64,000 bases of DNA from Cinnamomum chago (Eukaryota; Streptophyta; Magnoliopsida; Laurales; Lauraceae), in assembly GCA_038049695.1 (NCBI GenBank), contig CP142451.1, forward strand, positions 66,779,501-66,843,500, read 5' to 3'. The notes beneath the pieces were generated by a model. It was given only the letters and a program-made list of their open reading frames with translations, was not told where the DNA came from and did not search any database. Position 1 is the stretch's first letter. Each line of letters starts with the position of its first letter. A program made the translations under genes and the position numbers. Below are positions 2,745-36,512 of this stretch, piece after piece.

Positions 2745-2886
2745 CTCGGTCGACCGGCAAAGAGGTCTCGGTCGACCGGGAAGGCACAACGGTCAGATTT
2801 CTGACCGTTGGAGGTTTCAGTTCAGAAACTGCAGGTTTTACCTCCAGATGTCTCGGTCGACCGAGACCTGCCTCTCGGTCGACCGG
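2745..2886. repeat. Cluster of GGTCGACC palindromes
   Basis: GGTCGACC occurs at 2748-2755, 2770-2777, 2855-2862 and 2877-2884. The third is part of a perfect 16-bp palindrome, TCTCGGTCGACCGAGA (2851-2866). The cluster lies about 25 bp upstream of the minus-strand TATA-like sequence of the surrounding LTR. Confidence 0.9.
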
Positions 2887-3279
2887 CGACACTGCCGGGA
2901 CAGCCTCCCTTTGACAAAAAATGCAACTTTTGCATATTTGAAGGTTTTTCTATGGGGGACCTTTTGGCCACTAAATCAAGCTTGAAAAACATGTTTTAAA
3001 GATTCTAATGGTTTTTAAAACATGAACATAAAAAGCCTAAAACGATTCAAAACTTTTAAAACAAAGGCTTGCTTGATTTCTTGAAAACTCTTTTCTAAAA
3101 CAAATGCATCCAAGTTTTAAAAACAAATCATGCAAAAATCAATACTTTTATAAATCTTAAAAACAATGCATGAATAAAACAAGATTTCAAGTTTATTTAA
3201 AACCAATGCAAGTGTGTAAATCAAATGATGCTTGAATGATAATGCATCCATCAAATTGCAATCTAGAAAATTCCTAACA

Positions 3280-3560
3280 TCCATTGCTCGTGAAACTTGA
3301 CGGGCACGGGCCACTAGTCATTCTTGACTTGCTGGAACTGATGGAACGAGATTCCGACTCTCGGTTTCATCGTACAGTTGAAACATAGGTTTAAGTTAGA
3401 ACGTTAACTTAAAACTTAGAAAACGAGCCTCCGGCGTCCAAAATGAGCAAACAGTGTTCCTTGCTCTTGAAACTTGACGGGCACGGGCCCTTAGTCATTC
3501 GTGACTTACAGGAACTGACGGAACGAGATTCCGACTCCAGGATTGATGTTAATGTTGAAA
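3280..3560. repeat. 178-bp tandem repeat array (second block)
   Basis: The array resumes after the solo LTR with cores at 3307 and 3484 (177-bp step). It fades at about 3550-3560 into AT-rich sequence leading to the subterminal motifs of the CACTA element. Monomers here are more diverged than in the first block, as expected at the edge of an array. Confidence 0.85.
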
Positions 3561-3891
3561 CGTAAGTTAAAATTTTAATTTTAATTCTTAATTTTTTATA
3601 TTTAGTATAAATTGCCAATTTTTATACTTATCTTTTAATATTTATTTTTCTTTTTCTGTTCAGGTTTGAGAGCATCGGATATACCACGGCACCCGGCAAC
3701 CCGGCAAATTTTTTTTTTCTTTTTCCTGTAAATGTAATGGATATATTTTATTGAAACTTTTGTAATGTTTTGAATGAACATAATATAAGACTTTCTTTTT
3801 TTATTTGTGATTTTAATTGATGGTAGTAGTTGTATATATTTAGGTTTTGTTATTTGTAATTTTAATTGATGGCATGATTTGTATATACTCA

Positions 3892-3916
3892 GGTACAGGT
3901 ACAGGTACAGGTACAA
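3892..3916. repeat. CAGGTA hexamer microsatellite
   Basis: About four head-to-tail copies of CAGGTA in the AT-rich part of the CACTA element. No function is suggested. Confidence 0.8.
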
Positions 3917-3969
3917 AAACAAGGAAATAATTTGAGAAAATAAAAAGATTTTGTTAAAAAAAAAATAAC

Positions 3970-4325
3970 CTTTAGCGGCCGCCAGTGGCGGTCGCTAAAA
4001 GAGCCATTGGCGGTCGCTAATAGCATCAAAAATAAAAAAAAAATTAAAAAAAAAAAAAAACAATGTATTAGCGGCCGCCAGAGGAGTATTAGCGACCGCT
4101 AATACTAAAAAAAATTTAAAAAAAAATAAAAATTCAAAAAAAAGGGGGCATTAGCGACCGCTGTATAAGTATTAGGCGGTCGCTAAAAGTCAAAATGTTG
4201 TTTTTTTTAATTTTTTAATACTTTTAGCGACGAGCTTTTCGCGGCCGTCGAGAGGCGGTCGCTAAAGACTGTTAGCGACCGCCAATATACTTTTAGCGAC
4301 GGCAAGTGGCGGCCGCTAAAAGTCA
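3970..4325. repeat. CACTA subterminal repeat region
   Basis: About ten copies of a 10-12 bp motif close to TTAGCGACCGCC occur in both orientations, often as facing pairs (for example TTAGCGGCCGCC and GGCGGTCGCTAA around 3975-3998). They are separated by A/T-rich spacers. This layout is typical of transposase-binding subterminal repeats in CACTA elements; the binding itself is inferred. Confidence 0.85.
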
Positions 4326-4339
4326 ATTTTCTACTAGTG

Positions 4340-4667
4340 CTTATGAATGGACTCGGTCCCGTTTCCCACAAAATTCAAGCATCCTACTCTCCAAACATAT
4401 ATGGGGAAAGGTTCAGCCAGACAGCACGTCATTCACTTCAAGATCCTGACGGGAGCTATCGCAGATCAAGATGCCCTCAAGATCCGTCTCTTTGCAAGTA
4501 CCCTAAAAAGTACGGCCTTCAATTGGTACTCCACTCTGCCAAAGGACTCCATCCAAAATTGGGCCATGCTGGAGACACGCTTCCTCACCCACTTCAAAGG
4601 TGAAGATCACCCTATTACTATGGCGCAGCTCTGCAGCCTAAAATAGGGAGAGAATGAGTCAATTTAC
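4340..4667 (+). pseudogene. Tat-type Ty3/Gypsy gag, left-hand fragment
   Basis: Translated segments show a retrotransposon gag pattern, including KFKHPTLQTYMGK, ALKIRLFASTLKSTAFNWY and MLETRFLTHFKGED, of the type seen in Tat/Ogre-like Gypsy elements. The left end abuts the CACTA terminus. The right end is the insertion point of a Copia element with TSD TTTAC/CTTAC. Further gag sequence of the same type lies on the far side of that insertion at 24982. It is part of a fossil element. Confidence 0.8.
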
Positions 4668-4817
4668 TATTAGTTTTATGGTCTCAATACCAAGGGTATA
4701 TGATGTAATAAATTGATTAATTTCTTTACTTATCAAAACAATCATGATTTCCTTTCATGAGGTGAATGGTGTTTAATTATATACTTGCACATAACCAATA
4801 CGAATGACGTAATGACT
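4668..4817 (+). other. Copia A, recognisable 5' LTR portion
   Basis: This stretch matches the first 150 bp of the 3' LTR at 23220 (shared text includes TATGGTCTCAATACCAAGGG and ATTGATTAATTTCTTTACTT). The following sequence does not match the 3' LTR. Confidence 0.85.
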
Positions 4818-5655
4818 CGATCGACCTGGTGACTTGCAGGTCGGTCGACCAAGCCCTCTGGCCGGTCGACTGAGCCTACTGCACACAGCATGTTGCAGAA
4901 ACTGTTTTTTTTTTTTTTTTCAGTTTCGGGTCTTCTCTTACATCCTATTTTTTCAACATTATTTTGCAGCCTGTTTTTGTGATTTGTATGGTTGCATGAG
5001 ATACTAACTTGCATGTGATAATGTCCTCTCCATATGGCCCACAAGTCTTTTACTTTCTTTTTATGGTTATTGGTTTATTTGAGGCTGAGTGTAAAGGGCA
5101 TATGGTTTCCTTGGTTTCCCATGAAAGGGCAAGGCATGGTGAATTTCCCTATAGCCCTTTTATTTCCATGTTTAGATTACCATGTAAGTCTCATAATTGA
5201 GGCATAGGAATTTATGTAATTTTTCTAAATTTGTAAATTCTGGCGATGTCCGAGACGAGGAAGGAAAGCAAAGTTGGACTCCTAATCAAAGAGTTTGAAG
5301 ATTACCAAAAGCCTTTTGGTGATGCCCAAAGAGTTTGAGGAATCCCAAAGTTTTGGAAAGTCTAGAAGTCCAAGAAGTCTATTCCGCTTGGGCCATGTGG
5401 AGGAGAGGACTAGTTTCTAATTTTAGCACTTTCTATTTATGGATGAATGCTTAATTTAGAATGTTTTCAAATCTGATCCAAACATAGCAAGTTACCAAAA
5501 TTGGTCAAATCAAATTAATTTTTGGAAAGAGTTCTAATTAGAGTTGATGGGCCCATGAGATGGATCCATTGGTAACACTAATTTAGAAACTGGACTTTCC
5601 TTAAAATAACTTGACTTGGAACCAATCATTGATCATATCATGAGATGATTTGATG

Positions 5656-5691
<36 letters not shown>

Positions 5692-6288
5692 GGCCCTAAT
5701 ACCTTACAAGGAAATCCTCAATTCTAAAATATTAAGTGGGAGCAAGGCATTTATGTTTAAAAATCCCCATGGTTTTCCACCATATGTCCATTGTAAGGAA
5801 AGTATTAGCCTCGCGCCATCTTGAGAATGACTGTTCCCCACGGAAGGCTTTTACTTGTCTGGCTACTAGATATGGATCTCCTATGGATAGTGTTGGTGAG
5901 ACGAGGCGGGGGCCCACTCCCCAAGGAGGAGCTGCTCGCAACGGTTGTCATGCAATGCTAGTTGGTGGGTCACACTTAACTAAAATAATGATGTAGTATC
6001 CCCAAGGATTTGCCTCATTTATTTTAGAAACCGAAGCTAATCGGGAGTCATTCATTATTTGATATGAGATACCTAGATAATAATGAATGAAGGGGATCAT
6101 GAAAAGTTAGTCGTAATCCTAATTTTGACCAACTTTGATCCGTACCAATCTAGGTGGTATTCGCACTCCCTAAGGAGGCATACCCCGTGGATTGGGATTC
6201 CGATGTATTCTGAATTTAGTGGTTATGAGGATTCCATATAAATTTGGTAGAATACTAAACCCTAATGTCATTTAAATTCATTAATTGA
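4818..6288. other. Unassigned leader upstream of Copia A gag
   Basis: There is no convincing coding sequence and no recognisable tRNA primer-binding site. It holds TCGA-centred palindromes (CGATCGACC near 4817, GGTCGACC at 4843-4850, GGTCGAC at 4864-4870), a T tract near 4902-4920 and an (AT)n run at 5659-5688. It may be the genuine long leader of the element or sequence from another element; I cannot decide. Confidence 0.5.
5659..5688. repeat. (AT)n microsatellite
   Basis: About 15 dinucleotide units in the leader of Copia A. Confidence 0.9.
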
Positions 6289-7190
6289 ATGTATGGTTAT
6301 GTGATACAGTATTTCAAGCATGAATTCAAATACTTTCAATCCACTTGCGACATCCTCAACCAGAATAAGTTGGTGGGATCCAACTATGTAGACTGGAAAC
6401 AGAACCTGCATATAGTCCTACCAGCTTCAGGATATAAATATGTCCTTACCAAACCCCCCTTTGATGAGCCATTGCCGGAAGTATCATAGGAAGAAAATGA
6501 ACTTTACACCAGGTGGGCCAAAGACGATGAGATGGCCAGATGTTACATACAGGCATCCATGTCTAGTATTTCGCAACACCAACATCAATCCTTTAAGACT
6601 GCATATGATATTATATCAAACTTAAAGGAGATGTTTGCGGAACAAGGCAGGCCTGCTAGACAGGCTGCTATGAGGGTGCTTATAAGCACCAAGATGGCTG
6701 AAGGCACACCAGTACATGACCACATGTTGAAAATGATGGACTCATTGAATGAGTTAGATGTACTGGGGGCTGCGATTGATGCAGAATCGCAGATTGACAT
6801 AATCCTTGAGTCACTACCAGAGTCATTCAACAATTTCAAAGTCAGCTATAATATGAATAAGATGAATTTGACTGTAGCTGAGCTTTCTAGCCAGCTGGTG
6901 GTGACTGAAGGGATTATGAAGAAGAAGCCAACTGCCCTGATGACAAAAAAGTCATTTGCCAAGTCCAAACCGAAAGGCAAAGGGTGGAAAGGCAAGAAGA
7001 AGTCAGTTCCAAAGGGTCCTAAGGTGGAGAATGGTCCTAATGGTGGTGTTGGCAAGGCTAAGGGGTCGGGGACAAAAGGAACGTGTTTCCATTGTGGTAT
7101 GACAGGACATTGGAAAAGGAATTGTCCAGATTATCTGTCTAAGAAGAAGACCTCAGGTATGATTGAGTCACTTGTTTCTGAAGTTAGTTT
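6289..7190 (+). pseudogene. Copia A gag region
   Basis: The Gag capsid-like part is recognised by NKLVGSNYVDWKQNL, EMARCYIQASMSS, LKEMFAEQGRPARQAAMR and LPESFNNFKVSYNMNK. A basic K/G-rich stretch and one CCHC zinc knuckle (CFHCGMTGHWKRNC, about 7084-7125) follow, as in nucleocapsid domains that bind genomic RNA. It leads directly into the protease. Fossil. Confidence 0.88.
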
Positions 7191-7199
7191 TGCAATTGA

Positions 7200-7560
7200 T
7201 ACTTCAGAATCTTGGTGTGTGGACTCCGGGGCAACTAATCACATATGTAATTCGTTGCAGGGGTTCCGGGAAACCAGGGGACTCAGTGACGGTGAAATCA
7301 TTGTCAACCTAGGATCTGATGCTAAGGCGGATGTGGTCTCAGTAGGAGTTATTACTTTATGCTTTCAAGATAATAAGTTGGTTTTGTCAGACACTCTATA
7401 TGTACCGTCTTTAAGACGGAATTTAATTTCAGTTTCTAGTTTGGTGAATAAAAGTTATTCTATTACTTTTGGTACTGAAGTTGTCATAAAGAGGAACGGT
7501 ACTTTTATATGTTCTGGCAAGGTAACCAATGGGCTTTATCTGTTAACTCCCACAATGTAT
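7200..7560 (+). pseudogene. Copia A protease region
   Basis: The aspartic protease is recognised by the active-site block WCVDSGATNHICNS and the downstream LYVPSLRRNLISVSSL, typical of Copia proteases that cleave the polyprotein. It lies between the zinc knuckle and the integrase, as expected. Fossil. Confidence 0.88.
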
Positions 7561-7599
7561 GAGATACATAATACCGAAATAATTAATAGACTATCATTA

Positions 7600-9222: not shown

Positions 9223-10486
9223 TGTAAGACCCCGACCCGAGAGAACTTGATTAGTACTCATTAAGTTGTGTGTTAGTTCTAAGCTTAATTAGTGATTTTG
9301 GCTAAGTTGGGTTTGGAATAGCTTTTGAAATAGTCTTTGGGGAATTTTGATTGTCTTGTGTTAGTGGGACCCTTTGGGGGTTCCTTTTTATGACCTTGCA
9401 TGCACTTGAAGATTAATTGAAGATTTTTCATTCATTGTTTTAATCTCATCTTATTGGTATTGTTAACCCCTACAACTTTTATGTTGATCTCGTCCCCGTT
9501 CGAGATCCCGAAACCCGATTTCATAGCCTTGAGGGCAAAACAGTCATTGTGCACAAAATCTGTACTCAAAACTTGATATTCCCGAAACCCGCGAAACATA
9601 TACTTTTTGAAAACTAGATATTTCCACGATCACTTTTCTCTTCTTCGTCGAATTCATTAGAAGCCCCGAAAGCCATGAATCCAGCCCAATTAGATTTCTA
9701 GTGGTGGAGCCCACTCCCCATTTGTGTATAAGGAAACCATTTCCCCTTCCATTTCCTTTTTCCAGCACAAGAGAGTGAATCTGGGGTTTTCCATTGCCTT
9801 CTTCTCGCTCTTGCTTCCATCACCAAACTCACCACCAACCTTACATAAATTGAGAGGAGGAGATCATCACCTTCTTCATCATCACCATAGCTCTCTATTG
9901 GTACCATTGCTAGAGCAAAACCCTCCATTACAAGACTCCTTTTGAGCTCACCTTGTCCATTAGAGGACCTTACAAGTAAGTAACCCTTCTCTTCTTCTAG
10001 AATTGTGTTCTCCTAGCTTAAGGGAATCTCCATCTTTGTTATTGAAGCTTCTTTCTTCCTATTCTATGTTTTGACTCTTTAGGGTTTTATTTTGGGATTT
10101 TCCTTATAGCTTGGACCTTTGATTTAAAGGACTTGTTAGAGCTTGATTTGCTTACTAGAGACCAAGGCAAGTGGATGAATGTTTTTTTTTCCTAAGCTTC
10201 CTTTGACTTTGGATATTTTCCATTAATGCATAGTTATTGCTTTGTTTTGAAATGAATGCTCATGATAGGGTATTAATGGTACATTTATGGTACATTTATG
10301 GTCCAAGAGATGTGTTGGTTCATAGCATTTAATTCCTCTTGTTTTGTCTCAAATATACATCTTATGTGAAATGGTTTCCTTCTTTATTTCCTTGTGATTG
10401 GATGTGATATGGATGGAGGAGAATCGGATGGATGTGGTGAAAGATTTGATGTTATTTGAATGGAGTTTTAGACTCCTCATCTGATG

Positions 10487-10494
10487 TATAAAAG
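10487..10494 (+). promoter_or_regulatory. Probable TATA box of the element C 5' LTR
   Basis: TATAAAAG occurs in the middle of the LTR and is conserved in the 3' LTR at 18536-18543. The palindrome cluster starts about 75 bp downstream, so it would lie in the transcribed leader if this TATA is used. The start site itself is not visible. Confidence 0.5.
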
Positions 10495-10567
10495 TGGCTA
10501 AAAAGGGATTGTAGAAGGAAGAGATAGAGAGGAGCTGAACTGGTCCGGAATCAGTTTCTGGACGGCT

Positions 10568-10836
10568 CGCTCGAGCGAACATGACACTTCGCTCGAGCGA
10601 CCTGTCTAGAGAAGGGTTCAGAGCATTCCATTAGCTTGGTCGCTCAAGCGTACCCTTGGTCGCTCGAGCGGACATCCCAGAACCTGTTCCAGAGAGTTGT
10701 TCGTTCGAACGCACTATAAACTTCGCTCGACCCAATGAGTTCGTTCGAGCGACCTCAACTTCACTCGAGCGAACCCACCCAGACAGTCGTTCCAAAGAGC
10801 TACTCGCTCGAGCGAACTCTCCAGTCCGCTCGAGCG
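10568..10836. repeat. CGCTCGAGCG palindrome cluster, 5' LTR of element C
   Basis: Perfect CGCTCGAGCG occurs at 10568-10577, 10590-10599, 10661-10670, 10805-10814 and 10827-10836. Near copies lie at 10641-10650, 10742-10751 and 10762-10771, and GTTCGAAC at 10703-10710. Spacing is 20-70 bp. The same cluster is in the 3' LTR. Confidence 0.93.
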
Positions 10837-11575
10837 TTGAGCCTTGTGGGTCAAGGCTATGTTTGGGACCACGTTTAACTATTTCAACGTATTGGGACTA
10901 TTCTTTGGGAACCCCTCTATGTCAAGGAAATTTGCTAAGCAATGTATGAGGCCATTCGTGAAAGAAACCATATCACGAAGATGTCATTTGAGGTTTTGAA
11001 AATTCGGAGTGCATAAGGAGTCCGGAATGTCCCCAAACTCAAAGAGTACTAGATTGTTAGTAGACTGACATACGAAGCCCCTATTCACTTCAAATAGAGA
11101 TTTTACCCGAAATGTCAATTGTTTACTGTACTTTATCGATCCCGAGATTTATACTACGTGCCTTATTTTCCCGAAAGCATTGAATTACACTTGATATAGC
11201 TACTTGTCTTGAAGTGCATTGCACCACATGAAATGATAGTGTGCCCTTGAGCACCCTCGTCTTGCCCGTGTATTTATTGTACTTGATTAATTGCATATGT
11301 CTCAATTGTATTTGACCTATGAGTCGGCACCACTAAGCTTGGATAACCCTGTTGGTCTGATCCACCGACTTGGAGATCCCCCTCTTATCCCTCCAGCTGC
11401 AGTTTGGATCCCGCTACCCGGTTATTACCGTGGTCTTGTCCCGATGCCGCAGATTGCTACTATGGTCCCCGATGCCCGGCTTGCTACCGTGGTCATATAT
11501 AGTATATGTATATGTATTTATAAGATCCACTGTTTCTCCTCACCTCGAGTGACTGAGATCAGTGCCTAGTTATTG

Positions 11576-11597
11576 CTCTATCACTTTAGTGATAGAG
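11576..11597. other. Conserved hairpin in the Del/Tekay 5' LTR
   Basis: Arms CTCTATCACT (11576-11585) and AGTGATAGAG (11588-11597) pair perfectly across a TT loop. The structure recurs at 19624-19645 and, with a paired base change, at 37432-37453 in a different LTR family. Confidence 0.85.
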
Positions 11598-12336
11598 GAC
11601 TTAGCTTCGTGTGGTTGCCATCTTGATTGTTTCTTGTTCCCTTGGTTACCTTTATATGTTTTATGATGCATACCCGTATTTGAATAAATCTTTTATCTTG
11701 TTTAGAGAAATTGTCATTTAAACAGGTTCAAATGTTTTCGGAGGTAAATTCACGTATTTTTTTCATATTGTTATTGTGTTTTATCCATTTGTCAAACCGT
11801 CGTGTTTGACCTACTCTTTGGTACTTAGGTCCCGTTGTTGGTTATCCCGAGGAGGAGCACGAGGAGGCGGTCGTAGAACCGCAACAGTTAGTTGAGTGGC
11901 ATGCTGACGACGTCATGTAGACGTTTGGTGGCTATGAGAGACTTTATATTTTGGGAAACTATTTAACCATTCTTTGGATTGGTATTTTGGTTATATTGGC
12001 CTTGTGGGCCTCTAGTTTTGGGAAAATGTAATTAAATAATAATTGTATAAACTTTAACTTACTTTGGGTAACATGCTAATGATCATTGCTCATTCTGATA
12101 CGGTTTACACTAATGCTATTATCTTTATAATTTGAGATGGATTGAATATTTGATTTACTACACGCTTCCGCACTTAATAGAAATATTCATTTATGGTTGT
12201 GATATCCTCACCGCGGACACATGTGGGAAATTAAATAAATATATGAAATCATTAAATGTTGTAATATCATCATCATTAATAAATGTCCCGATCCCGGATC
12301 AGTCACGTGGGGACCCGGTCCGGGGTTGCGACAGAC

Positions 12337-12348
12337 TGGTATCAGAGC
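12337..12348 (+). other. Primer-binding site of element C (initiator Met tRNA)
   Basis: TGGTATCAGAGC, three bases after the LTR end, is complementary to the 3' end of plant initiator methionine tRNA, the usual minus-strand DNA primer for these elements. Confidence 0.9.
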
Positions 12349-12493
12349 GAGACGTGTTTCAAGCAATTAAAAGAAACTAGAAATCCTAAGGACGTGGCGA
12401 GGATTCGTTAGACTCTTCGTTAGCTAGTATCGTGTGAGCAATGTGTAACCCTTTATTTGATTTTTATGTACTAACAATTTGTTTTGCAGCATC

Positions 12494-13760
12494 ATGCCAC
12501 CTCGTAAGAGACCAGTAAATGTTTTCCCTTCTGCTAGCGATAGTGATCACACAGTTCCACTTGAAGAGGATAGGGTTGATAAGAACCCACCAAATCAATT
12601 TCAGCAGATGATGCAGGCAATGCTTGACCAACAACGCCAAGCTAATGAGAATCAAGCTAGGTTGCAAGAACAAATGCTCAAAAGAGAGGAAGACCATGCT
12701 AGAGAATTGGCAGATATGCAGAGGCAGTTATTGGAAGTGTTACAAAGAAGACCCAAGCCGGTTCAACCTCAGCCCACAATCGTTATCAATCAAAGGCAAC
12801 ATGACCCGAACGCTTTGTTTGAGCGGTTTCTGAGAGAGCTCCGAAAGAGTTTCTGGGGATAGAAGATCGATAGAAGATCCATTGGCTGCAGATGACTGGT
12901 TGGAACATACGGAGAACATCTTTGAGATTTTCCATTGTACCGGAGGTGAAAGAGTGAAGCTAGCATCATCTCTATTTAGCGGTACAGTAGACAGATGGTG
13001 GAAGACGGTGAGGGAGGAATACAGGACCATGGCTGATGCAGAGGTTTGGGCAAACTTCAAGAGACAATTCCATGATAAGTACGTGCCCGCTCACATTAAG
13101 AAGCAAAACGCAATAGAATTTCAGCAGCTTGTATAAGGAAGTATGACAGTCCTCGAATACCTCACTAAGTTCGAGAGATTGTTCAGATATGCTCCGGAGT
13201 TGGTGGATACGGTGGAGAAGAAAATTGTCAAGTTCTTTGAAGGACTTAACCCTTTTATTGAGAGAGATGCCACCGGAGTAGTACCACCTGCAACTTTTGA
13301 TAAAGCGGTCAAGAGGGCCTATAAGTTTGAGAACTTTCACAACAAGATCCTTAGAGTCCAAGGCAAGGGACAAGCTCAGCAGCAGAACTACCAGCAAAGG
13401 AACCATCAGAACAAGAGACAGAGGACAGAACAGAGTGCTCAGGGTCCATTGGTTTGTACCCATTGTGGGAAGAACAATGAGAGTGCACAGTGTCGTACAC
13501 TCACAGGAGCATGTTTCAGATGTGGTTCCATGGCCCATCAGATGAGAGACTGTCCAAGGCAGAATATGCAAAATCAGCAGCAGCAGCAAGGGGCACAACG
13601 TCCAGCAGCACCACAGAATGCAATCGTTGTTCAGAATCAAGCAAGGCCCCTACAGCAACAAGCACCACAACAGCAGCAGCATAGACCACAACAACAACAG
13701 GCTCGTCAGCAGGGACAGAACCACAATCAGCTTGCACCGCAGCAGCATAGGAATGCACCA
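12494..13760 (+). pseudogene. Del/Tekay element C gag region
   Basis: Begins MPPRKRPVNVFP. A glutamine- and arginine-rich segment with coiled-coil character is followed by a capsid-like part (DDWLEHTENIFEIFHCTG, VKLASSLFSGTVDRWWKT, ANFKRQFHDKYVP) and a C-terminal zinc knuckle CFRCGSMAHQMRDCP, with another cysteine cluster just before it. A long Q-rich tail follows. Fossil. Confidence 0.88.
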
Positions 13761-13869
13761 TAAGGCAGACCACAACAGGCACAGAATAGGCCACAACATC
13801 GAGGCCAAATCTACGGGGTCAATAGAGTTGATGCGGAGGCAGCGGGAAATGTAGTGGAAGGTACACTTC

Positions 13870-14290
13870 TTGTTTATGGGAATAAAAGCTAAGATTTTAT
13901 TTGACCCTGGCTCTACACATTCATTCTTATCCCATGAATTTTCTAAGTTGATTGATATGCATGCTAGAGAACTTGAGTTTATTTTGACTGTGGCAACCCC
14001 AGTAGGCAAACAAATTATTTGTAGTACATATTACCCTAGTTGCACAGTCCAGATAGGAGAAGTGGTTTTAACCGCAGATCTCATTCTATTAGAGATGTTC
14101 GATTTTGATGTCATCCTAGGGATGGATTGGCTGGCAGGATACCATGCCACAATGGATTGTTTCCATAAGACCCTGACTTTCAAGTTAGATGAGACACCAG
14201 CAAGGGTGTTGTTTCAGGGAGAGAGGAGGAGTCCTCGTGCAGGGTTGGTCTCAGCATTGAAGGCTGATAGACTTTTAAGAAGTGGTTGTG
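13870..14290 (+). pseudogene. Del/Tekay element C protease region
   Basis: The aspartic protease is recognised by AKILFDPGSTHSFLSHEF, VATPVGKQIICSTYYPSC and FDVILGMDWLAGYHATMDC. It lies between the gag Q-rich tail and RT. Fossil. Confidence 0.88.
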
Positions 14291-14419
14291 AAGCATATTT
14301 GGCATTTATCATGGAGGATAAACGGTCCCAAGGGGTGGAGGAGATCCCAATTGTTTGGGAATTCCCGGATGTTTTTCCGGAGGAGATTCCAGGTTTACCA
14401 TCCCATCAGAGAGATTGAT

Positions 14420-15240
14420 TTCACTATTGAGTTGTTACCAGGGACCGCTCTGATATCTATTGCACCATATAGAATGACTCCAGCAGAGTTGGGAGAATTG
14501 AAGACTCAGTTGCAAGAATTGTTAGACAAAGGTTTTGTGAGACCGAGCATTTCACCATGGGGAGCTCCAGTTTTATTTGTAAAGAAGAAGGATGGTTCGA
14601 TGAGAATGTGTATAGATTACAGAAGATTGAATCAAATGACCATCAAGAACAAATATCCATTGCCAAGGATAGATGAATTGTTTGACCAGTTACAAGGTGC
14701 ATCATACTTTTCAAAGATTGATTTGAGATTCGGTTACCATCAGCTAAGAGTTAGAGAATCAGATGTGTTGAAAACAGCTTTCCGGACAAGATATGGCCAC
14801 TATGAGTTCCTAGCTATGCCATTTGGGTTGACTAATGCGCCGGCAGTGTTCATGGCGTTGACGAACAAGATATTTGCAGAGTATTTGGATCAATTTGTTG
14901 TAGTGTTCATAGATGACATTTTGGTGTACTCCAAGACCAGAGAGAGCATGAAGAGCACTTGAGGATAGCACTGCAACTCTTGAGAGAGAATCAGCTGTAT
15001 GCGAAGCTCAACAAGTGTGAATTTTGGTTGGAGCAAGTAGCATTTTTGGGACACATCATCTCGAAAGAAGGATTGTCAGTGGATCCGTCCAAGATTGAAG
15101 CAGTTATGAGTTGGGAAAGACCGAAGAATGCAACAGAAATCAGAAGTTTTCTGGGTTTAGCAGGTTATTACAGGAGGTTTGTGCAGAGATTTTCGTCGAT
15201 TGCGTCACCTTTGACGAAGTTAACAAGGAAGAATGTTTCA
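14420..15240 (+). pseudogene. Del/Tekay element C reverse transcriptase region
   Basis: RT fingers and palm are recognised by [56 protein letters not shown] and [12 protein letters not shown], where FIDD holds the catalytic aspartates. Then come ECEFWLEQ-type text ([21 protein letters not shown]) and [16 protein letters not shown], typical of the RT thumb/connection. Fossil. Confidence 0.92.
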
Positions 15241-15329
15241 TATGTGTGGACAGATCAGTGTGAAGATAGTTTCCAAGAGCTAAAGAAGAGATTGACTACA
15301 GCACCAGTCCTTACTTTACCATCCGGGAG

Positions 15330-15690
15330 TGGCGGTTTTACCATTTTTACCGATGCTTCGAATGTTGGACTTGGTTGTGTGTTGATGCAAGAAGGAAAAG
15401 TGATTACTTATGGATCTCGACAGTTGAAAGATCACGAGAAGAACTATGCCACCCATGATCTTGAGTTAGCAGCGGTTGTGTTCGCATTGAAAATGTGGAG
15501 ACATTACCTCTATGGAGAGAAGTTCGAAGTCCACTCCGATCATCGCAGCTTACAATACTTGTTTTCTCAGAAGGAATTAAACATGAAGCAAAGAAGATGG
15601 ATGGAATATATCAAGGACTATGATTTTCCAATCAAGTACCACCCGGGGAAAGCTAATGTAGTTGCCGATGCCTTGAGCAGAAAATCAGTA
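15330..15690 (+). pseudogene. Del/Tekay element C RNase H region
   Basis: RNase H is recognised by [57 protein letters not shown] and [10 protein letters not shown], covering the acidic catalytic positions. It removes RNA template during reverse transcription. Fossil. Confidence 0.92.
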
Positions 15691-15899
15691 GGCTTGGCAA
15701 ACCTAAGTGGCACTTGTATCTTTGAGAAATTTGAAGAGTTGAGTTTAGACCTACAGCCACTAAGGAAGGGTGTTTTGTTAGCTAACATGACAGTGTCAGA
15801 GCCTTCTTTCATTCAGAAGATCAAGGATAGTCAGTTGTAAGATCCAGAGTTGGCCAAGATTTCATAGCACATAGCAGAACGTCCCGATTTCCGTATTGT

Positions 15900-17271
15900 T
15901 GATGGAGTTTTGTACTACCGTGACCTTTTAGGCGTGCCTAACGTTGAAGACTTGAGGAATGATATCATGACCGAAGCTCACAGTATGAAGTACTCTATGC
16001 ATCCAGGCAGCACGAAGATGTATCAGAATTTGAAGGGCAGATTTTGGTGGAACAACATGAAGAAAGAAATTACAGCGTTTGTCTCCCGTTGTATGACTTG
16101 TCAGTTAATAAAAGCGGAACATCAGAGGCCTCCAGGATTGTTACAGCCATTAGAGATCCCGGAATGGAAATGGGAGCACATTACTATGGACTTTATTTCG
16201 GGATTACCGAGGACTAATAGAGGCAACGATGCGATATGGGTCATTGTGGACCGACTCACCAAGTCAGCGCATTTCATTGCTATGAGGACAGGGAAGAAGA
16301 TGCACATGCTACCTTTAGCAGAGTTGTTTGTCAACGAGATCGTCAGTCGACATGGGCAGCCAGTTTCTATCACATCCGACAGAGACAGCAGATTCGTCTC
16401 GAGGTTCTGGAAGACGCTACATGAGTCTATGGGTACGAAACTACAGTTTAGCACAGCGTATCACCCGCAAACAGATGGTCAATCAGAGAGAACGATTCAA
16501 ACTCTTGAGGATATGCTCCGTGCTTGTGTATTGGATTTCAAGACTCAATGGGACGAGACTCTACCGTTGTGTGAGTTTGCTTACAACAATAGCTACCACT
16601 CGAGCATTGGGATGGCTCCTTTTGAGGCTTTGTATGGCAGGAGGTGTCGGACACCTGTTTGTTAGGAAGAGGTCGGGATTCGCAGTTTCCATGGGCCGAC
16701 GATAGTAAGTGAAACCAGCGACAAAGTGAAGTTGATCCAAGAACGTCTGAAAGTAGCCCGGAGTAGGCAGAAAAGCTATGCAGATTCTCATAGGAGAGAT
16801 TTACAGTTCAAAGAAGGAGATAAGGTTTTCTTGAAAGTGTCACCTATGAGAGGAACATTGAGATTTGGACAGAAGGGCAAGTTATCACGGAGATACATTG
16901 GACCATATGACATTGTGAGCAAGATTGGTGACGTGGCTTATAGGTTAGCCTTACCACCTGAGCTATCCGGCGTACACAACGTCTTTCATGTGTCTATGTT
17001 GAAGAAATATGTTTCCGATCCTTCGCATGTACTCCGGCACGAGCCATTGGAGATCAGAGAAAATGCTACCTATGTCGAGAAGCCCGTTCAGATTATTGAT
17101 ACGAAGGAACAGGAGTTGAGGACACGGACTATTCAGTGGATAAAGGTTCTATGGGAGAATCATGGACCCGAAGAGGCAACGTGGGAATTACGAGACCAAG
17201 TACAGAAGAAGTATCCACATCTACTACCTGAGGTGAGTCTTATGTTTCATTTGGTGGACCAAATGCCCTAA
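15900..17271 (+). pseudogene. Del/Tekay element C integrase and chromodomain-like tail
   Basis: The zinc-binding part ([31 protein letters not shown]) is followed by the core ([64 protein letters not shown]). Then come the GPF-like block SRRYIGPYDIVSKIGDVAYR and the tail IQWIKVLWENHGPEEATWEL, which resembles the chromodomain of chromoviruses that directs integration to heterochromatin. Fossil. Confidence 0.9.
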
Positions 17272-17282
17272 GGGGTGGAGGA
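17270..17282 (+). other. Polypurine tract of element C
   Basis: AAGGGGTGGAGGA lies directly before the 3' LTR, the expected primer for plus-strand DNA. Confidence 0.9.
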
Positions 17283-20200
17283 TGTAAGACCCCGACCCGA
17301 GAGAACTCGATTAGTACTAATTAAGTCGTGTGTTAGTTCTAAGCTAAATTAGTGATTTTGGCTAAGTTGGGTTTGGAATAGCTTTTGAAATAGTCTTTGG
17401 GGAATTTTGATTGTCTTGTGTTAGTGAGACCCTTTGGGGGTTCCTTTTTAAGACCTTGCATGCGCTTGAAGATTTATCGAAGATTTTTCATTCATTGTTT
17501 TAATCTCATCTTATTGGTATTGTTAATCCCTACAACTTTTATGTTGATCCCATCCCTGTTCGAGATCCCGAAACCCGATTTCATAGCCTTGAGGGCAAAA
17601 CAGTCATTGTGCACAAAATCTGTACCCAAAACTTGATATTCCCGAAACCCGCGAAACATATACTTTTTGAAAACTAGATATTTCCACGATCACTTTTCTC
17701 TTCTTCGTCGAATTCATTAGAAGCCCCGAAAGCCATGAATCCAGCCCAATTAGATTTCTAGTGGTGGAGCCCACTCCCCATTTGTGTATAAGGAAACCCG
17801 TTCCCCTTCCATTTCCTTTTTCCAGCACAAGAGAGCGAATCTAGGGTTTTCCACTCCCTTATTCTTCCTCTTGCTTTCCATCACCAAACTCACCACCAAC
17901 CTTGCACAAATTGAGAGGAGGAGATCATCACCTTCTTCATCATCACCATAGCTCTCTATTGGTACCATTGCTAGAGAAAACCCTCCATTACAAGACTCCT
18001 TTTGAGCTCACCTTGTCCATTAGAGGACCTCGCAAGTAAGTAACCCTTCTCTTCTTCTAGAATTGTGTTCTCCTAGCTTAAGGGAATCTCCATCTTTGTA
18101 ATTGAAGCTTCTTTCTTCCGATTCTATGTTTTGACTCTTTAGGGTTTTATTTTGGGATTTTCCTTGTAGCTTGGACCTTTAATTTAAAGGACTTATTAGA
18201 GCTTGATTTGCTTACTAGAGACCAAGGCAAGTGGATGAATGTTTTTTTTTCCTAAGCTTCCTTTGACTTTGGATATTTTCCATTAATGTATAGTTATTGC
18301 TTTGTTTTGAAATGAATTCTCATGATAGGGTATTAATGGTACATTTATGGTCCAAGAGATGTGTTGGTTCATAGCATTTAATTCCTCTTGTTTTGTCTCA
18401 AATATATATCTTATGTGAAATGGTTTCCTTCTTTATTTCCTTGTGATTGGATGTGATCTGGATGGAGGAGAATGGGATGGATGTGGTGAATGATTTGATG
18501 TTATTTGAATGGAGTTTTAGACTCCTCATCTGATGTATAAAAGTGGCTAAAAAGGGATTGTAGAAGGAAGAGATAGAGAGGAGTTGAACTGGTCCGGTAT
18601 CAGTTTCTGGACAGTTCGCTCGAGCGAGCATGACACTTATCTCGAGCGACCTGTCCAGAGAAGGGTTCTGAGCATTCCAGTAGCTTGGTCGCTCGAGCGT
18701 ACCCTTGGTCACTCGAGCGGACATCCCAGAACCTGTTCCAGAGAGTTGTTCGTTCGAACACACTATAAACTTCGCTCGACCCAATGAGTTCGTTCGAGCG
18801 ACCTCAACTTTGCTCGAGCGAACCCACCCAGACAGCCGTTCCAGAGAGCTACTCGCTCGAGCGAACTCTCTAGTCCGCTCGAGCGATGAGCCTTGTGAGT
18901 CAAGGCTATGTTTGGGACCACGTTTAACTATTTCAACGTATTGGGACTATTCTTTGGGAACCCCTCCATGTCAAGGAAATTTGCTAAGCAATGTATGAGG
19001 CCATTCGTGAAAGAAACCATATCACGAAGATGTCATTTGAGGTTTTGAAAATTCGGAGTGCATAAGGAGTCCGAAATGTCCCCAAACTCAAAGAGTACCA
19101 GATTGTTAGTACACTGACATACGGAGCCCCTATTCACTTCAAATATATATTTTACCCGAAATGTCAATTGTTTACTGTACTTTATCGATCCCGAGATTTA
19201 TACTACGTGCCTTGTTTTCCCGAAAGCATTGAATTACACTTGATATAGCTACTTGTCTTGAAGTGCATTGCACCACATGAAATGATAGTGTGCCCTTGAG
19301 CACCCTCGTCTTGCCCGTGTATTTATTGTACTTGATTAATTGCATATGTCTCAATTGTATTTGACCTATGAGTCGGCACCACTAAGCTTGGATAACCCTG
19401 TGGTCTGATCCACCGACTTGGAGATCCCCCTCTTATCCCTCCAGCTGCAGTTTGGATCCCGCTACCCGGTTATTACCGTGGTCTTGTCACGATGCCGCAG
19501 ATTGCTACTATGGTCCCCGATGCCCGGCTCGCTACCGTGGTCATATATAGTATATGTATATGTATTTATAAGATCCACTGTTTCTCCTCACCTCGAGTGA
19601 CTGAGATCAGTGCCTAGTTATTGCTCTATCACTTTAGTGATAGAGGACTTAGCTTCGTGTGGTTGCCATCTTGATTGTTTCCTGTTCCCTTGGTTACCTT
19701 TTTATGTTTTATGATGCATACCCGTATTTGAATAACTCTTTTATCTTGTTTAGAGAAATTGTCATTTAAACAGGTTCAAATGTTTTCGGAGGTAAATTCA
19801 CGTATTTTTTTCATATTGTTATTGTGTTTTATCCATTTGCCAAACCGTCGTGTTTGACCTACTCTTTGGTACTTAGATCCCGTTGTTGGTTATCCCGAGG
19901 AGGAGCACGAGGAGGCGGTCGTAGAACCGCAACAGTTAGTTGAGTGGCGTACTGACGACATCATGTAGACGTTTGGTGGCTATGGGAGACTTTATATTTT
20001 GGGAAACTATTTAACCATTCTTTGGATTGGTATTTTGATTATATTGGCCTTGTGGGCCTCTATTTTTGGGGAAATGTAATTAAATGGTAATTGTATAAGC
20101 TTTAACTTACTTTGGGTAACATGCTAATGATCATTGCTCATTCTGATACGGTTTACACTCATGCTAATATCTTTATAATTTGAGATGGATTGAATATTTG

Positions 20201-20381
20201 ATTTGCTACACGCTTCCGTACTTAAAAGAAATATTCATTTATGGTTGTGATATCCTCACCGCGGACACCTGTGGGAAATTAAATAAATATATGAAATCAT
20301 TAAATGCTATAGTATCATCATCATTAATAAATGTCCCGATCCCGGATCAGTCACGTGGGGGCCCGGTCCGGGGTCGCGACA
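17283..20381 (+). repeat. 3' LTR of Del/Tekay element C
   Basis: Nearly identical to 9223-12333 (3099 versus 3111 bp). It has the TATA-like site at 18536-18543, the TCGA palindrome cluster at about 18616-18884 and the hairpin at 19624-19645. It ends GGTCGCGACA, followed by the TSD AGTCA. Confidence 0.95.
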
Positions 20382-20386
20382 AGTCA

Positions 20387-20951: not shown

Positions 20952-20956
20952 CCAAT

Positions 20957-23205: not shown

Positions 23206-23219
23206 CCCAATTGGGAGAT

Positions 23220-30770: not shown

Positions 30771-30899
30771 ATCAAAAATTTGAAGTCAAGAAGCCTGATC
30801 CGTTGCCTTATTACAACAAGGCACAATCACTTCGCCAAAGGTTTGACATCTGTCATATGACCCATATCTTCAGAGGTGAGATAGGACCTATGATGTCCA

Positions 30900-31715: not shown

Positions 31716-32079
31716 AGACTTACGCCACTGGGTCAGAGCAATGCATGCATGGCCAAAAGCCTATTCTCAAGTACTCGCTCGTCAAACCCACCTCTTTTAG
31801 ATTTTTCATCCTTCTGTTGAGATTTCTAAAAATTCAAAACAATTCTTACTTTCATAGTTTCAATGTTTAAAAAAAATCCAAAATCCAAGTTCAGGAGCCT
31901 CTTCCCGAACTTGACCAAATTTTCGTTCCTTGAACACAACTCATGGTTTGAAACAAAATCGGGACTCAGGAATTTCCACCCTAGTCCACTCTGACTTTTA
32001 CAACCAAAAAATGATTTTAAGTCAAAATTTACGACCCTCGTGTCTTTAAACAAAAAAAAATGGTTTTTTTAGAAACCAC

Positions 32080-32515
32080 GGGGAAGCGACGCTCAGTCAA
32101 TACTCGTAAAACCCAAAAATCGGAAGGATGCAAACCTCATTCGATACTTCCAAAATTTCAAAATCGCAAGGAAGCGACACTTTGTCCATACTTGCAGAAT
32201 TTCAAAAATCATGGAGACGCAACATTCCAGTTGATATCCACAAACCCAAAATTCAAACAAAAATCGAGGACCAAAAAAAAAAAGACCTCAAATTTCAAAA
32301 CTCGTGGGGAAGCGACATTCAATCAATACCCACAAAATCAAAATTTTTGAAAAAAGCAAGGAAGCGGTGTTTAGTCGATACTTGCACCAAAATTCGCGAG
32401 GAGGCGACATTCCATCGATACTCTCAACCGAATGAGCAAGGAGGCGACATTCCATCGATACTTGCAAGTTCATTCAGCAGGGAGGTGACTTTTAGTCGAT
32501 ACTTGCATTTTTGAA
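32080..32515. repeat. Tandem repeat 1 in Tat 3' region
   Basis: About eight diverged units built on GGAAGCGACATTCAGTCGAT followed by ACTTGC and an A-rich spacer; unit length is about 45-70 bp. Typical of the hypervariable 3' untranslated region of Tat/Ogre elements. Confidence 0.82.
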
Positions 32516-32529
32516 AACCAAAACCCGAC

Positions 32530-32955
32530 TCTCATGCCAAAATCGGCTATAAATGCCAAAAACCTGGCTCTCATGCCAAAAATCGGCTATCAACGCCACA
32601 AAATCGGCTATAAATGCCACAAAACCTAGCTCTCATGCCAATTCAAAATTTGGCTTTCATGCCAACAAAATAAAACTTGGTTTTCAAAAAAAAAACCGGC
32701 TCTCATGCCAAAAATCGGCTATAAACGCCACAAAAAAAATCGGTTATAAACGCCACAAAATTTCGGCTTCCATGCCAAAAACAAATTTCGACTTCCATGC
32801 CAAAAATAAATCCCGGCTATCAATGCCACAAACAAAAATTTTGGCTCCCATGCCACAAACAAAACCGGCTTCCATGCCATCCCAAATTTTGGCTTCCATG
32901 CCATCTCAAAATTCGGCTTCCATGCCATCTCAAGATTCGGCTTTCAGGCCAAAAC
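32530..32955. repeat. Tandem repeat 2 in Tat 3' region
   Basis: About 17 short units on the theme CGGCTNTCATGCCAAAA, or its variant CGGCTATAAACGCCACAAAA, with 20-35 bp spacing. Several sister unit types are interleaved. Confidence 0.88.
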
Positions 32956-33364
32956 AACCATTTGATAAAAGGTATTTCACAAAATGACAAACTTTTGATC
33001 AAATTTCCAAACAAACATTCTCATTTAACTATTACTTGAATTTATCACAAAAGAATTTGAGTGAAAAGAGGGAATACAAAAAAAAGAGAAGTGCTAAAAA
33101 ATAATGTCCACAAGCACTACAAGAGAAAGAGTACCAAAAAATATATGCGTGTATACACGGGTACCATAAAAAAAAGAAAAAAAGATTGTTACCAGAATCA
33201 GGAGCTCAGTCTCACATGGTCTTCAACCAAAGACTCAACTCCTCAAGCAGATTCTTAGCCTTAGCCTCTAAAGCTTCCAGGCCATGCTTCTTCAAAATCT
33301 TCCCATAAAATGTGGAGGAACGTCGCGATCCGTCTGCAACACAGGGAAGCTCTTCCCAAAGAAT

Positions 33365-34165
33365 CTACCATCGCTCGTACTCTTGAGTCTTCCTCCAGAG
33401 ATTGCTTTCAGCCTCCTCGACTTGGCGAATCAGAGTCCCTTCTCTGGCACGAGCTTCCACAATGGCAGCCCATTTTGCAGCAGCTTGTTCCTCCAATAGC
33501 TCAAGATGCTGCCTGGACTTAACGACCTTTCTATCAACACAGCGCAGATCTTCTGTCAGCTCAATGATAGCCAACTCGGTAACGTTCCTCTCCCGAACGA
33601 ATTGCTTCCGAGTCTGCAAGATCTCGTTTAACTCAGACTTGACCTCACCAGAAGGCTTCAGAAACATCTCGTTGAAGAAGTCACCACTTGGGAAGCTCTT
33701 GGTTTCATTCCACTTGTTCCCTAGAGTTATGACTTCATCAACGAAAGCCTTCGCACCTGCAATGTCCAGACCGACTTCTTCGCTATCGGCAAGGATGTCC
33801 TGTACATGTGTGATCATGCCGAAGCCAGCTTCCAAATGGCCAGAAGAAAGAGTTTTAACCCATGAGCTCAAAACACTCTTCAACACTTTCTTCACGTACT
33901 CAAGAGATGGCCCGGATGAAGGCTCGCCCCTCTCCATTGGTCGACTGCCCGTGTCATGTCCTACTGGAGGAGTGATCATTAAGCTCTTTCTAATCGGAGA
34001 CACTTGCGAAGGAATCTGCTTAGAAGATTTCGTCTCTGCCGCATTAAAACTGGGAGAAGAAGTCCCTACTTCTGGTTCAATTGCAGGCATCTCCTGCTCT
34101 GGCACTAAGAAAAACGGAGGAACCTCTTTCGATACCTCACAACCTACCAGCAAAACAAAAAACAA
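33365..34165 (-). CDS. Antisense open frame in the Tat 3' region
   Basis: A 266-codon open frame on the strand opposite to the element's pol. The middle has SLEYVKKVLKSVLSSWVKTL and GLDIAGAKAFVDEVITLGNKW. The last 100 residues are charged and look like a coiled coil (EIRQT-like ILQTRKQFVRERNVTELAII, QHLELLEEQAAAKWAAIVEA). There is no transmembrane segment apart from a hydrophobic start that may be non-coding. Antisense extra frames between pol and the 3' LTR are known in Tat elements such as Grande, but their function is unknown. I do not recognise the domain. The true start is uncertain; a short upstream exon cannot be excluded from DNA alone. Confidence 0.6.
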   Translation of the reverse strand: MFFVLLVGCEVSKEVPPFFLVPEQEMPAIEPEVGTSSPSFNAAETKSSKQIPSQVSPIRKSLMITPPVGHDTGSRPMERGEPSSGPSLEYVKKVLKSVLSSWVKTLSSGHLEAGFGMITHVQDILADSEEVGLDIAGAKAFVDEVITLGNKWNETKSFPSGDFFNEMFLKPSGEVKSELNEILQTRKQFVRERNVTELAIIELTEDLRCVDRKVVKSRQHLELLEEQAAAKWAAIVEARAREGTLIRQVEEAESNLWRKTQEYERW

Positions 34166-34489
34166 AAAGGGGCAGCACGTGAAAAAAAAAGAGAAAACAC
34201 GTGAAAAAAAAGAAAGAAAAAAAAAGGAGAAAGAAAAGAAAAGAAAAAGGAAAGAATTCTACTTCTACATGGAGTTTCTTACTTGAAGCCATTGATGGAG
34301 AAGAAGAAGAAAAGCTTGAAGATCTTTGAAGAAGAAGAAGAATTCTTGATCTTGGAGCACTCTTGGATACTCTTGCAAAGAAAGAAAGCAAAGAAGCAAA
34401 GATCCAATCTCCTGTTGCTTTTATAGAAGAGAGCAAATCAAAAGAGGAAACAAGGAGAAAAGAAAGGAGGTAAGTGCTAAAAATTAGCA

Positions 34490-34705
34490 ACCTTTCCAAA
34501 AGAAAGGAGATTTGAGATATTCTCTCCCAAAGAGAAGATTCTTTGAGAAATTTTCTCCAAAAAGAGAGGGAATGAGAAATATTCTCTCCCAAAGAAAGAC
34601 ACTTTGAGAAAATCTCTCCCAAAAGAAAGGAAACTTGAGAGATTCTCTCCAAGTAAAGATATTTTTAAATATTCTCTATCCAAAGGGATATTTTTAGATA
34701 TTCTT
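34490..34705. repeat. Tandem repeat 3 in Tat 3' region
   Basis: About five units of roughly 40 bp on the theme GAGATATTCTCTCCCAAAGA, with AAGGANACTTT spacers. It lies upstream of the antisense frame (on its strand), so it could sit in that frame's promoter region; this is inference. Confidence 0.8.
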
Positions 34706-34979
34706 TACAAAATGACACCATGTGAGATCTAAGTCATCTTTAAAGCTTAAGGTCCCATGGGATAGCCCATATGAGCCAGGTTACACCACCTAGGCACTAA
34801 AAGAGGCTTCCTTTCAAAATTCCTCTTACCAAGAGCGTACAAAATGGTCCCATGCCTCTTTTGAGTTGATTGGACCACACACAAAAAAATCCAAGCCTCA
34901 TGAGCTTCCAAAATTTCAAACCATCCCACCTCATATACCAAGTTGAGCCAAAATCCTGAAATTGACATTCCACAAAATT

Positions 34980-35160
34980 CAAACCTGACCCCCTAGCTTG
35001 CCACATCAACTTGTTAGATCACAAGGTCAAAACCAAATCTGACCCCCCAATTTGCCACATACAGCTTGTTGGGTCAGAAGGTCAAAATCCAAAAAAAAAA
35101 TCAAACCCCGACCCCCTAACCTGCCACATACAACTTGTTAGGTCACAAGGTCAAAAACCA
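34980..35160. repeat. Tandem repeat 4 in Tat 3' region
   Basis: Three units of about 60-70 bp sharing GACCCCCTAACCTGCCACAT and CTTGTTAGGTCACAAGGTCA. A further partial unit runs into the solo LTR at 35213 and resumes after it (CACAAGGTCAAAA at 38180). Confidence 0.85.
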
Positions 35161-36438
35161 AGAAATCCTTCTTGATCGCCTGACGCGCCACATAAAGCCC
35201 TTAGGTTCACAATGTAAGACCCCGACCCGAGTGAACCCGTTTAGTGCTAATTAAGTTGCGTTTTAGTGCTAAGCTTGATTAGTGTTTTGGTCTAGTTGGG
35301 TTTGGAATAGCCTTGATTCTAGTTTTGGGCTTTTTAGAGTGATTGGTAGCTTGTGGGGCCCTTTGGGGGTTTCCCTTTTCGGCTTTGCGTTTTCTTGCGA
35401 GATTTTCCCGATTGGTTGTGAATTGTGTTTTTGGCCCGTTGCATTCATCTTGTGGATTCTTACAACTTTCATGTTGATCCCGTGTCCATTCGAGGCCCCG
35501 AAACCCGATTTTCATAGCCTTGAGGGCAAAACAGTCATTGCACACAAAATCTGTACCCAAAACTTAATATTCTCGAAACTTGCAAAACATACACTTTTTG
35601 GAAACTAGATATTTCAACGAACAATTCTTCCTTCTTCGTCGAATTCATCCGAGGACCCGAGAGAGATGATATCAGCCCATTTAGTTTCATTAGTTGTGGG
35701 ACCCAATCCAACCCAACTCTTTAGCTAACAAGAGAAGCCATTAGCCATTCACTTCATTTATCATTTTCCAGCACAAGAGAAGAGTCTAGGGTTTCCCTTG
35801 GTTTTCTCTTCTTCTTCTTGCTTCTCCATCTCAAATCCCCACAAATCTTGCACCAAACTCAAAGTGGAGATCATCTTCTTCTTCCTCATCTTGCAAGCAT
35901 TCCATTGCTACCATTTGTGAAGAGAACCCTCCATCACAAGACTTCCATTAAGCTTACTCTTGCCATTAGAGGACTTTCCAAGTAAGTGATTCCTCCCATC
36001 TCCTAGATTAGTGTTCATCTAGCCTTAGGGAAGCTACATTTGCATTATTGGGAGTTATTTCATTTTCTTTCCTTGTGTAACCCATTTTAGGGTTTTATTT
36101 GGGGATTTTGCCTTGTAGCTTGGGCCATTTTCTTGGAGGACTTGATAGAGCTTAATATCATTAATTGAAGACTTGAGGCAAGTGAATGTTTGGATGTTTT
36201 TAAGTTTGAAATGGTTTGGTGATGCATTTATGGTTTTCATGTTTTCATTGATTACTTTCATTGATTTTTCTATGGTTGAAATAAATGATCTCTACACATC
36301 TTGATAGCCTCATTTAATGTCTTGGAATCATGTGTTTAAGTCTCCTTGTCCATAGTTGATTGTGGTTGTTGAGGTGTTGGAAGGAAAGGAAACAAAAAGG
36401 AGAAAAATCAAGTTCCCGGGCATGCTTCACGCCCAGTG

Positions 36439-36512
36439 CCGATCAATCGGACCTACAGGCCGATCGATCGGTCTGACTTTTAACAGTAAGGCTTTTTGGA
36501 CCGATCGATCGG
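36439..36512. repeat. CCGATCGATCGG palindrome cluster in solo LTR E
   Basis: CCGATCAATCGG at 36439-36450, CCGATCGATCGG at 36460-36471 and again at 36501-36512. It is placed in the LTR much as the CGCTCGAGCG cluster is in element C (offset about 1230 versus 1345). Confidence 0.92.

Follow-up and report, generated by a model that had tools for sequence, protein, structure and literature searches.

Clusters of palindromic words form exchangeable cassettes at one place in Ty3/gypsy chromovirus-like long terminal repeats of Cinnamomum chago

We analysed a stretch of 64,000 nucleotides of the Cinnamomum chago genome (contig CP142451.1, positions 66,779,501 to 66,843,500; hereafter the window), in which clusters of short palindromes lie within the long terminal repeats (LTRs) of retrotransposons. 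A Ty3/gypsy chromovirus-like (Del/Tekay-like) element occupies 9223–20381 on the plus strand, with LTRs at 9223–12333 and 17283–20381, the target-site duplication (TSD) AGTCA and a primer-binding site (PBS) at 12337. Its 5′ LTR carries at 10567–10836 (LTR offset 1345–1614) the class A cassette, composed of TCGCTCGAGCGA and its variants (10–11 units at up to four mismatches), and the class A cassette of the 3′ LTR lies at 18616–18885. RNaseH, integrase, SH3 and weak chromo matches were found between 14917 and 17271 in Ty3/gypsy order, the chromodomain match (PF00385) reaching E 8.5e-4 and 19.6 bits, under the cut-off of 25.1. The element is presumably of the Del/Tekay kind, a name based on a first-pass annotation of the window and on the LTR length. 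In addition, a solo LTR of a related family lies at 35213–38179, also on the plus strand and flanked by the TSD CACAA (35208–35212 and 38180–38184); its class B cassette at 36439–36512 (LTR offset 1227–1300) consists of one imperfect and two exact CCGATCGATCGG units, with start spacings of 21 and 41 bp. These clusters in Ty3/gypsy chromovirus-like LTRs are the new part of the analysis, the first cluster of the window being of a known kind.

The first cluster belongs to a solo Sirevirus-type LTR of 2223 bp, read from the sequence at 1057–3279 on the minus strand (TSD TCCAT at 1052–1056 and 3280–3284), which breaks an array of 178-bp satellite units (1–1058 and 3280–3620). Four exact CGGTCGACCG units, which carry a CGG-CCG dyad signature, occupy 2747–2885 with start spacings of 22, 85 and 22 bp, and an extra dyad, AACGGTCAGA-TT-TCTGACCGTT, was read directly at 2788–2809 within the cluster. 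The units sit in the upper half of the LTR (395–533 of 2223) and, in the orientation of the LTR, are followed after about 27 bp by a TATAAAT box (2714–2720, minus strand). This orientation was derived from relatives that stand in tandem on contig C9. In one relative (L092), the polypurine-tract (PPT) octamer AGGGGGAG is repeated, with two copies within 100 bp, and the last copy is followed by AT and then by the TGTTAGG of the LTR; in another (L093), a PBS-like TGTTATCAGAGC stands directly after the LTR end, on the minus strand as are the PPT octamers. Since the octamer, its repetition and a cluster just upstream of the TATA box are published Sirevirus features (PMC2829016), the GGTCGACC cluster at 2747–2885 is, judged from its letters, of a known kind, namely a Sirevirus (Ty1/copia) repeated-motif (RM) box. 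The first-pass annotation had assigned this cluster to a Copia-type LTR and had seen a TATA-like sequence beside it, and both statements were borne out, the latter as a canonical TATAAAT in the element's own orientation. An imperfect GGTCGACC cluster of three units at 4817–4870 shows weak similarity to the first one (76.9% over 39 bp, E 0.001). The tandem array (G000:C9:13453689-13572094) consists of the Sirevirus LTR and a short internal part with a period of about 4541 bp, and holds 21 of the 40 matches listed. At the locus L042, a Sirevirus LTR starts inside a class A cluster (offset about 1425) and is 100% identical over 95 bp to the window copy.

Exact palindromes with a TCGA core were recovered where the first-pass annotation had located them, at 2747–2756, 2769–2778, 2850–2867 (18 bp) and 2876–2885 in the first cluster, at 4843–4850, six times within 10567–10836, six more times within 18616–18885, and at 36460–36471 and 36501–36512, while 36439–36450 is an imperfect copy, CCGATCAATCGG. 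The window contains 299 palindromes, 32 of which are TCGA-cored and at least 8 bp long. The comparison with shuffled sequence that the annotation had proposed came out in its favour in both number and clustering: 18 TCGA-cored palindromes of at least 10 bp were observed, as compared with 3.2 ± 1.8 (maximum 9) in 100 dinucleotide-preserving shuffles, and the densest cluster holds 6 palindromes (at least 8 bp) per 300 bp, where shuffles reach at most 3. A chance origin of the palindromes is excluded by this excess. Taken alone, the two-unit B stretch is unremarkable (2 palindromes; mean 0.62, maximum 4 in 500 local shuffles), as is 4790–4890 (2 palindromes; mean 0.36, maximum 3 in local shuffles).

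Both kinds of Tekay-like LTR share the start TGTAAGACCCCGACCCGAG, found at 4,389 places in the 1.06-Gb genome. The first 30 of these places as listed, all on contig C1, were taken blind to their content and read to 1519 bp from the start, and their units were sorted into class A (TCGCTCGAGCGA), class B (CCGATCGATCGG) and class C (CGGCTAGCCG or CGGCTAACCG, with the core CTAG). Exact units were present in 29 of the 30 LTRs, and two or more of them in 27, the sole unitless LTR (L036) being interrupted by Sirevirus sequence. Sixteen LTRs belonged to class A, five to class B and eight to class C, and one (L031) adds a B unit to its A units. The words were absent from the first 1100 bp of every LTR, both the 30 sampled and the three of the window. 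The clusters lie at similar though unequal offsets in related LTRs (1345–1614 for A and 1227–1300 for B), much as the first-pass annotation had noted, and neither random cluster positions nor mere duplication of a 10-mer without replacement between families was seen. Its statement that all of the palindromes centre on TCGA holds for the window clusters and fails for the family, since the related LTRs include the CTAG-cored class C; a TCGA core as a general rule is thereby ruled out. Genome-wide, the four words searched occur 20,150, 15,936, 10,686 and 5,366 times, and the corresponding reversed words 5, 24, 2 and 6 times.

An alignment of six LTRs, one each of A and B and four of C, was then read for identity in steps of 100 columns. 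Identity between A and B was 0.59–0.89 up to about offset 945, 0.49–0.52 with many gaps at 946–1200 and 0.23–0.48 at 1200–1760, and returned to 0.61–0.89 beyond. Likewise, A and the class C locus L035 agreed at about 0.77–0.83 before the C cassette, at 0.34–0.51 in 1200–1565 and at 0.80–0.92 after it. In L035, A-like sequence stands directly on either side of the C cassette and two intact A units remain at the cassette end, while parts farther upstream (about 570–860) are closer to B; L041 aligned poorly over a longer stretch (0.45–0.59 to about 2100). The A, B and C cassettes themselves showed no mutual similarity by BLAST (plus strand, best E 0.5). Furthermore, in L052 the C cassette of L035 (91% over 276 bp) is followed on its 3′ side by B-like sequence (93% over 450 bp), and in L031 and L045 an A cassette gives way to a B-like tail (98.6% over 69 bp and 97.2% over 72 bp, which is all that those loci cover). 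On a 32-row tree of the 5′ flank (first 1150 bp, without L036), which recombination within the flank may distort, the classes need at least five changes where two would do, and class C as a single clade was rejected (approximately unbiased test, p = 7e-9). These results established that the clusters are cassettes without detectable homology inside homologous LTRs, and that they are swapped between elements to yield mosaics. The words change because whole cassettes are exchanged, and the proposal of the first-pass annotation that the place is fixed while the word varies among related LTRs is supported.

The same annotation had also suggested that the symmetry is kept while the bases are swapped, reflecting selection for the palindrome itself. 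Changes within the units were examined in 93 sequences (90 loci and the three window LTRs), from which three window duplicates were dropped to leave 90, with at least two exact class A cores in 45 and at least two class B cores in 35. At up to three mismatches, the median number of units per locus was 9 for A (45 loci) and 3 for B (35 loci), some loci ending inside the cluster. Among 372 class A units (210 distinct contexts), one-arm changes numbered 225, whereas both arms were changed in 13 pair-cells (8 mirrored and 5 not) against about 15 expected if the arms changed independently, which rules out stepwise mirrored substitution inside class A units. Pair 4 gave 7 mirrored and 2 other changes where 5.1 were expected, largely owing to one inherited unit, CGTTCGAACG, and 27 A units have inherited the half-site TCGCTCGACCCA. 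Since mirrored double changes in class A are not in excess, the data lend no support to selection for the symmetry itself or to a swap of base for base, the words changing by whole-cassette exchange instead.

Class B gave a different picture, with 108 of its 114 units exact. Within the query region, to which the conservation test was restricted since the copies had been chosen by similarity, class B unit sites were off the majority letter in 0.19% of cells, as compared with 2.44% elsewhere, CpGs included, and 0 of 5000 shifts were as low. Selection for a fixed word is supported for class B. A rival explanation for the clusters of all classes would be that the CpGs, of which each unit holds two or three, are kept for a methylation-sensitive reader or for a CpG-island-like promoter state. 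Indeed, two or three CpGs are present in all four words, and the observed/expected CpG ratio is 1.04–1.23 in five cluster stretches versus 0.59 in the window. However, such a CpG-dense target would leave the palindromy unexplained, and the non-CpG unit sites of class B are nearly invariant as well (0.17% of cells), and we consider this explanation quite improbable.

We tentatively favour, at somewhat less than an even chance, the reading that the clusters are putative binding-site arrays for a dimeric protein, spread by recombination and forming an enhancer-like module in the LTR. In this proposal, the array would be bound by a dimeric DNA-binding protein, most likely a host transcription factor, and would work as an enhancer-like cis-regulatory module of the LTR. 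The dimeric nature of the protein would account for the dyad form of the site, and a family would hold to one word since the bound protein reads that word. A change of word would then require that a whole different cassette be acquired by recombination between LTRs, perhaps through template switching in reverse transcription or through DNA recombination, and local duplication would produce the extra copies of a unit. Its support comes from the fixed place, the cassettes without detectable homology, the mosaics, the lack of mirrored-drift excess in A and the word invariance in B, while protein binding, the transcriptional effect and the identity of the protein are what we infer from them.

The spacing between units also bears on this proposal. 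In the A and B loci, neighbouring units were mostly 20–23, 29–33, 39–43, 49–51 or 62–63 bp apart, and Sirevirus-type copies combine a gap of 22 bp with one of 75, 85 or 96 bp, variants about one turn apart. Among others, the first 50 places listed for each of three words add gaps of 37, 46, 66, 72, 82, 90, 103, 119 and 121 bp. The merged gaps (42 values, five classes) gave a best period of 10.25 bp with R 0.39, for which p is 0.036 once the scan over periods 7–16 is allowed for, and p 0.005 at a fixed period of 10.5 bp, which was sought only after gaps of 21–22 bp had been seen; gaps of at most 66 bp gave p 0.023 after the period scan, and an earlier version with 16 distinct values gave p 0.03 after the scan. 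We regard the proximity of the gaps to multiples of 10.5 bp as weakly suggestive.

Several observations weigh against the binding-array proposal. Off-pattern gaps include 12, 17–18, 78 and 81 bp in the A and B loci and 37, 46, 66, 90 and 121 bp among the places listed for the three words, the class C gaps fit 11.75 bp rather than 10.5, and the periodicity falls to p 0.18 without class C, to 0.38 for class A alone and to 0.70 for class B alone. The outcome also depends on the gap list, 30 values giving p 0.0035 and the fuller 42 values p 0.036. In addition, gaps of the same class have a common descent, and the values were hand-merged when they were already known. Moreover, class A units are no better kept than the rest of the query region (2.90% versus 2.58%; 3582 of 5000 shifts as low): their lower divergence, a candidate sign of general class A unit conservation, vanished within that region while the class B signal stayed, and selection for a fixed word is not supported for class A. 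Finally, no promoter could be located in the Tekay-like LTRs, with an AT-run shared by A and B lying about 0.65–0.87 kb downstream of the clusters and TATAAAAG near the A cluster being absent from B, and therefore an enhancer is something that we infer.

The lack of special conservation in class A units and the weak spacing signal would also suit a neutral history, in which a 10–12-mer spread by minisatellite-like duplication and gene conversion and hitchhiked, functionless, on recombinant LTRs. Part of the class C sequence indeed repeats in tandem at about 115 bp (L057), local duplications are found in the spacers, and LTR amplification alone accounts for the copy number. A purely neutral spread nevertheless appears unlikely to us, as three cassettes without detectable homology share one architecture at one place, a similar architecture occurs in a different superfamily and the class B units are invariant.

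Other repeats were also observed. At L053, positions 786–1500 hold a tandem repeat of 53- and 74-bp units with 15 copies of GGTTCGAACC, a fifth TCGA-cored palindrome array, which has gaps of 21, 53–54 and 74 bp and no BLAST match to the window or to other loci. In the window, 3975–4337 contains ten GCG[AG][CT]CGC motifs (at 3975, 3988, 4010, 4071, 4092, 4154, 4176, 4255, 4275 and 4309), with gaps of 20–22 or 61–62 bp in six of nine cases and of 13, 34 and 79 bp in the others; with its terminal CACTAGTAGAAAATTG on the minus strand, we take it to be a likely CACTA transposon end. Irregular short tandem repeats of CGGCTATAAACGCCA- and CGGCTTCCATGCCA-like units lie at 32519–32951.

We also considered the folding of the transcripts. 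On either strand, the predicted folding of 200-nt windows over the clusters of five LTRs was stronger than in 40 shuffles (z −2.6 to −8.8), whereas Tekay-like flank windows gave about −1 to +2, except for −2.1/−2.5 beside the L057 cluster. This would agree with an RNA-level role, in which the palindromic transcript folds on itself and small RNAs arise from the region or are directed at it, as has been argued for the Sireviruses of maize, whose palindromes attract small RNAs according to passages of PMC10760457 and PMC5311732. On the other hand, compensatory changes within class A units are not in excess, the folding is about equal on both strands, as any set of palindromes must give, two Sirevirus flank windows fold strongly too (z −4.0 to −6.4), which limits the specificity there, and the targeting by small RNAs may be an effect and not the cause. 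We rate RNA structure as a rather doubtful explanation. Retroviruses carry palindromic dimer-initiation loops, and by analogy, the differing self-complementary words of related elements might serve as kissing sites for genomic RNA dimerisation. This is highly improbable, given many copies in place of one loop and a Sirevirus LTR cluster that lies upstream of the TATA box, which would place it away from the 5′ end of the genomic RNA.

The four searched words amount to about 52,000 copies in the genome, which would give a very large number of sites to any host factor able to bind them. The natural swaps of A, B and C in similar LTRs provide ready-made comparisons for binding, small RNAs and methylation, and thus a testable system of promoter evolution. 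They also bear on the question of why elements retain a part of the LTR to which silencing is drawn.

Among open-licence papers on Tekay or chromovirus elements and palindromes, we found no published account of such clusters in Tekay-like LTRs; the parts consulted of PMC6911290, PMC3212565 and PMC11963269 describe none, and a literature search with the words themselves returned only unrelated biomedical titles among the matches listed. Among the closest known systems are the RM boxes of Sireviruses, CpG-rich dyad words that cluster near the TATA box within the upper half of the LTR, as described by Bousios et al. (2010, PMC2829016). The first word of the window is identical in all ten letters to the Vitis Sirevirus RM of their Table 3, CGGTCGACCG, and the Tekay-like class C fits the CGGCTWRCCG contained in the Citrus Sirevirus RM, AATCCGGCTWRCCGGATT. 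The window's Sirevirus LTR differs in its length, 2.2 kb as compared with 0.54–1.68 kb in their Table 2, and in having four units only, counted in a solo LTR whose internal part is absent, whereas the RM criterion of at least eight copies is per element (PMC2829016). The CGG-CCG signature common to the 13 published RM words (PMC2829016) is found in class C, and not in A or B. Furthermore, the RMs had been called Sirevirus-specific on comparison with other Ty1/copia elements (PMC2829016), while the matching architecture of classes A, B and C sits in Ty3/gypsy chromovirus-like LTRs, where the cassettes are exchanged at one homologous place.

The words common to Sireviruses and Tekay-like class C suggest common host factors. 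On this basis, the two superfamilies might share a vocabulary of dyad words read by a few host- or element-encoded dimeric proteins, with the array as an exchangeable, perhaps helically phased docking module, in which a new word would mean a new host factor, a new tissue or a route of escape from silencing. We consider such a shared vocabulary doubtful, and a chance match of words across superfamilies is not negligible because there are 13 published words with a common CGG-CCG signature.

A 2016 study in Genome Research reportedly described, in maize Sireviruses, a part of the LTR that is rich in palindromes, evolves fast and is predicted to fold strongly. The clusters described here share these three traits, and differ in that they belong to another superfamily and have words swapped between homologous LTRs. 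Clusters of short, family-specific protein-binding motifs in non-coding parts of transposons are also found in the subterminal repeats of CACTA elements, which are bound by the transposase, and in the VANC anti-silencing motifs of VANDAL elements, and the cassettes of the Tekay-like LTRs may be likened to both.

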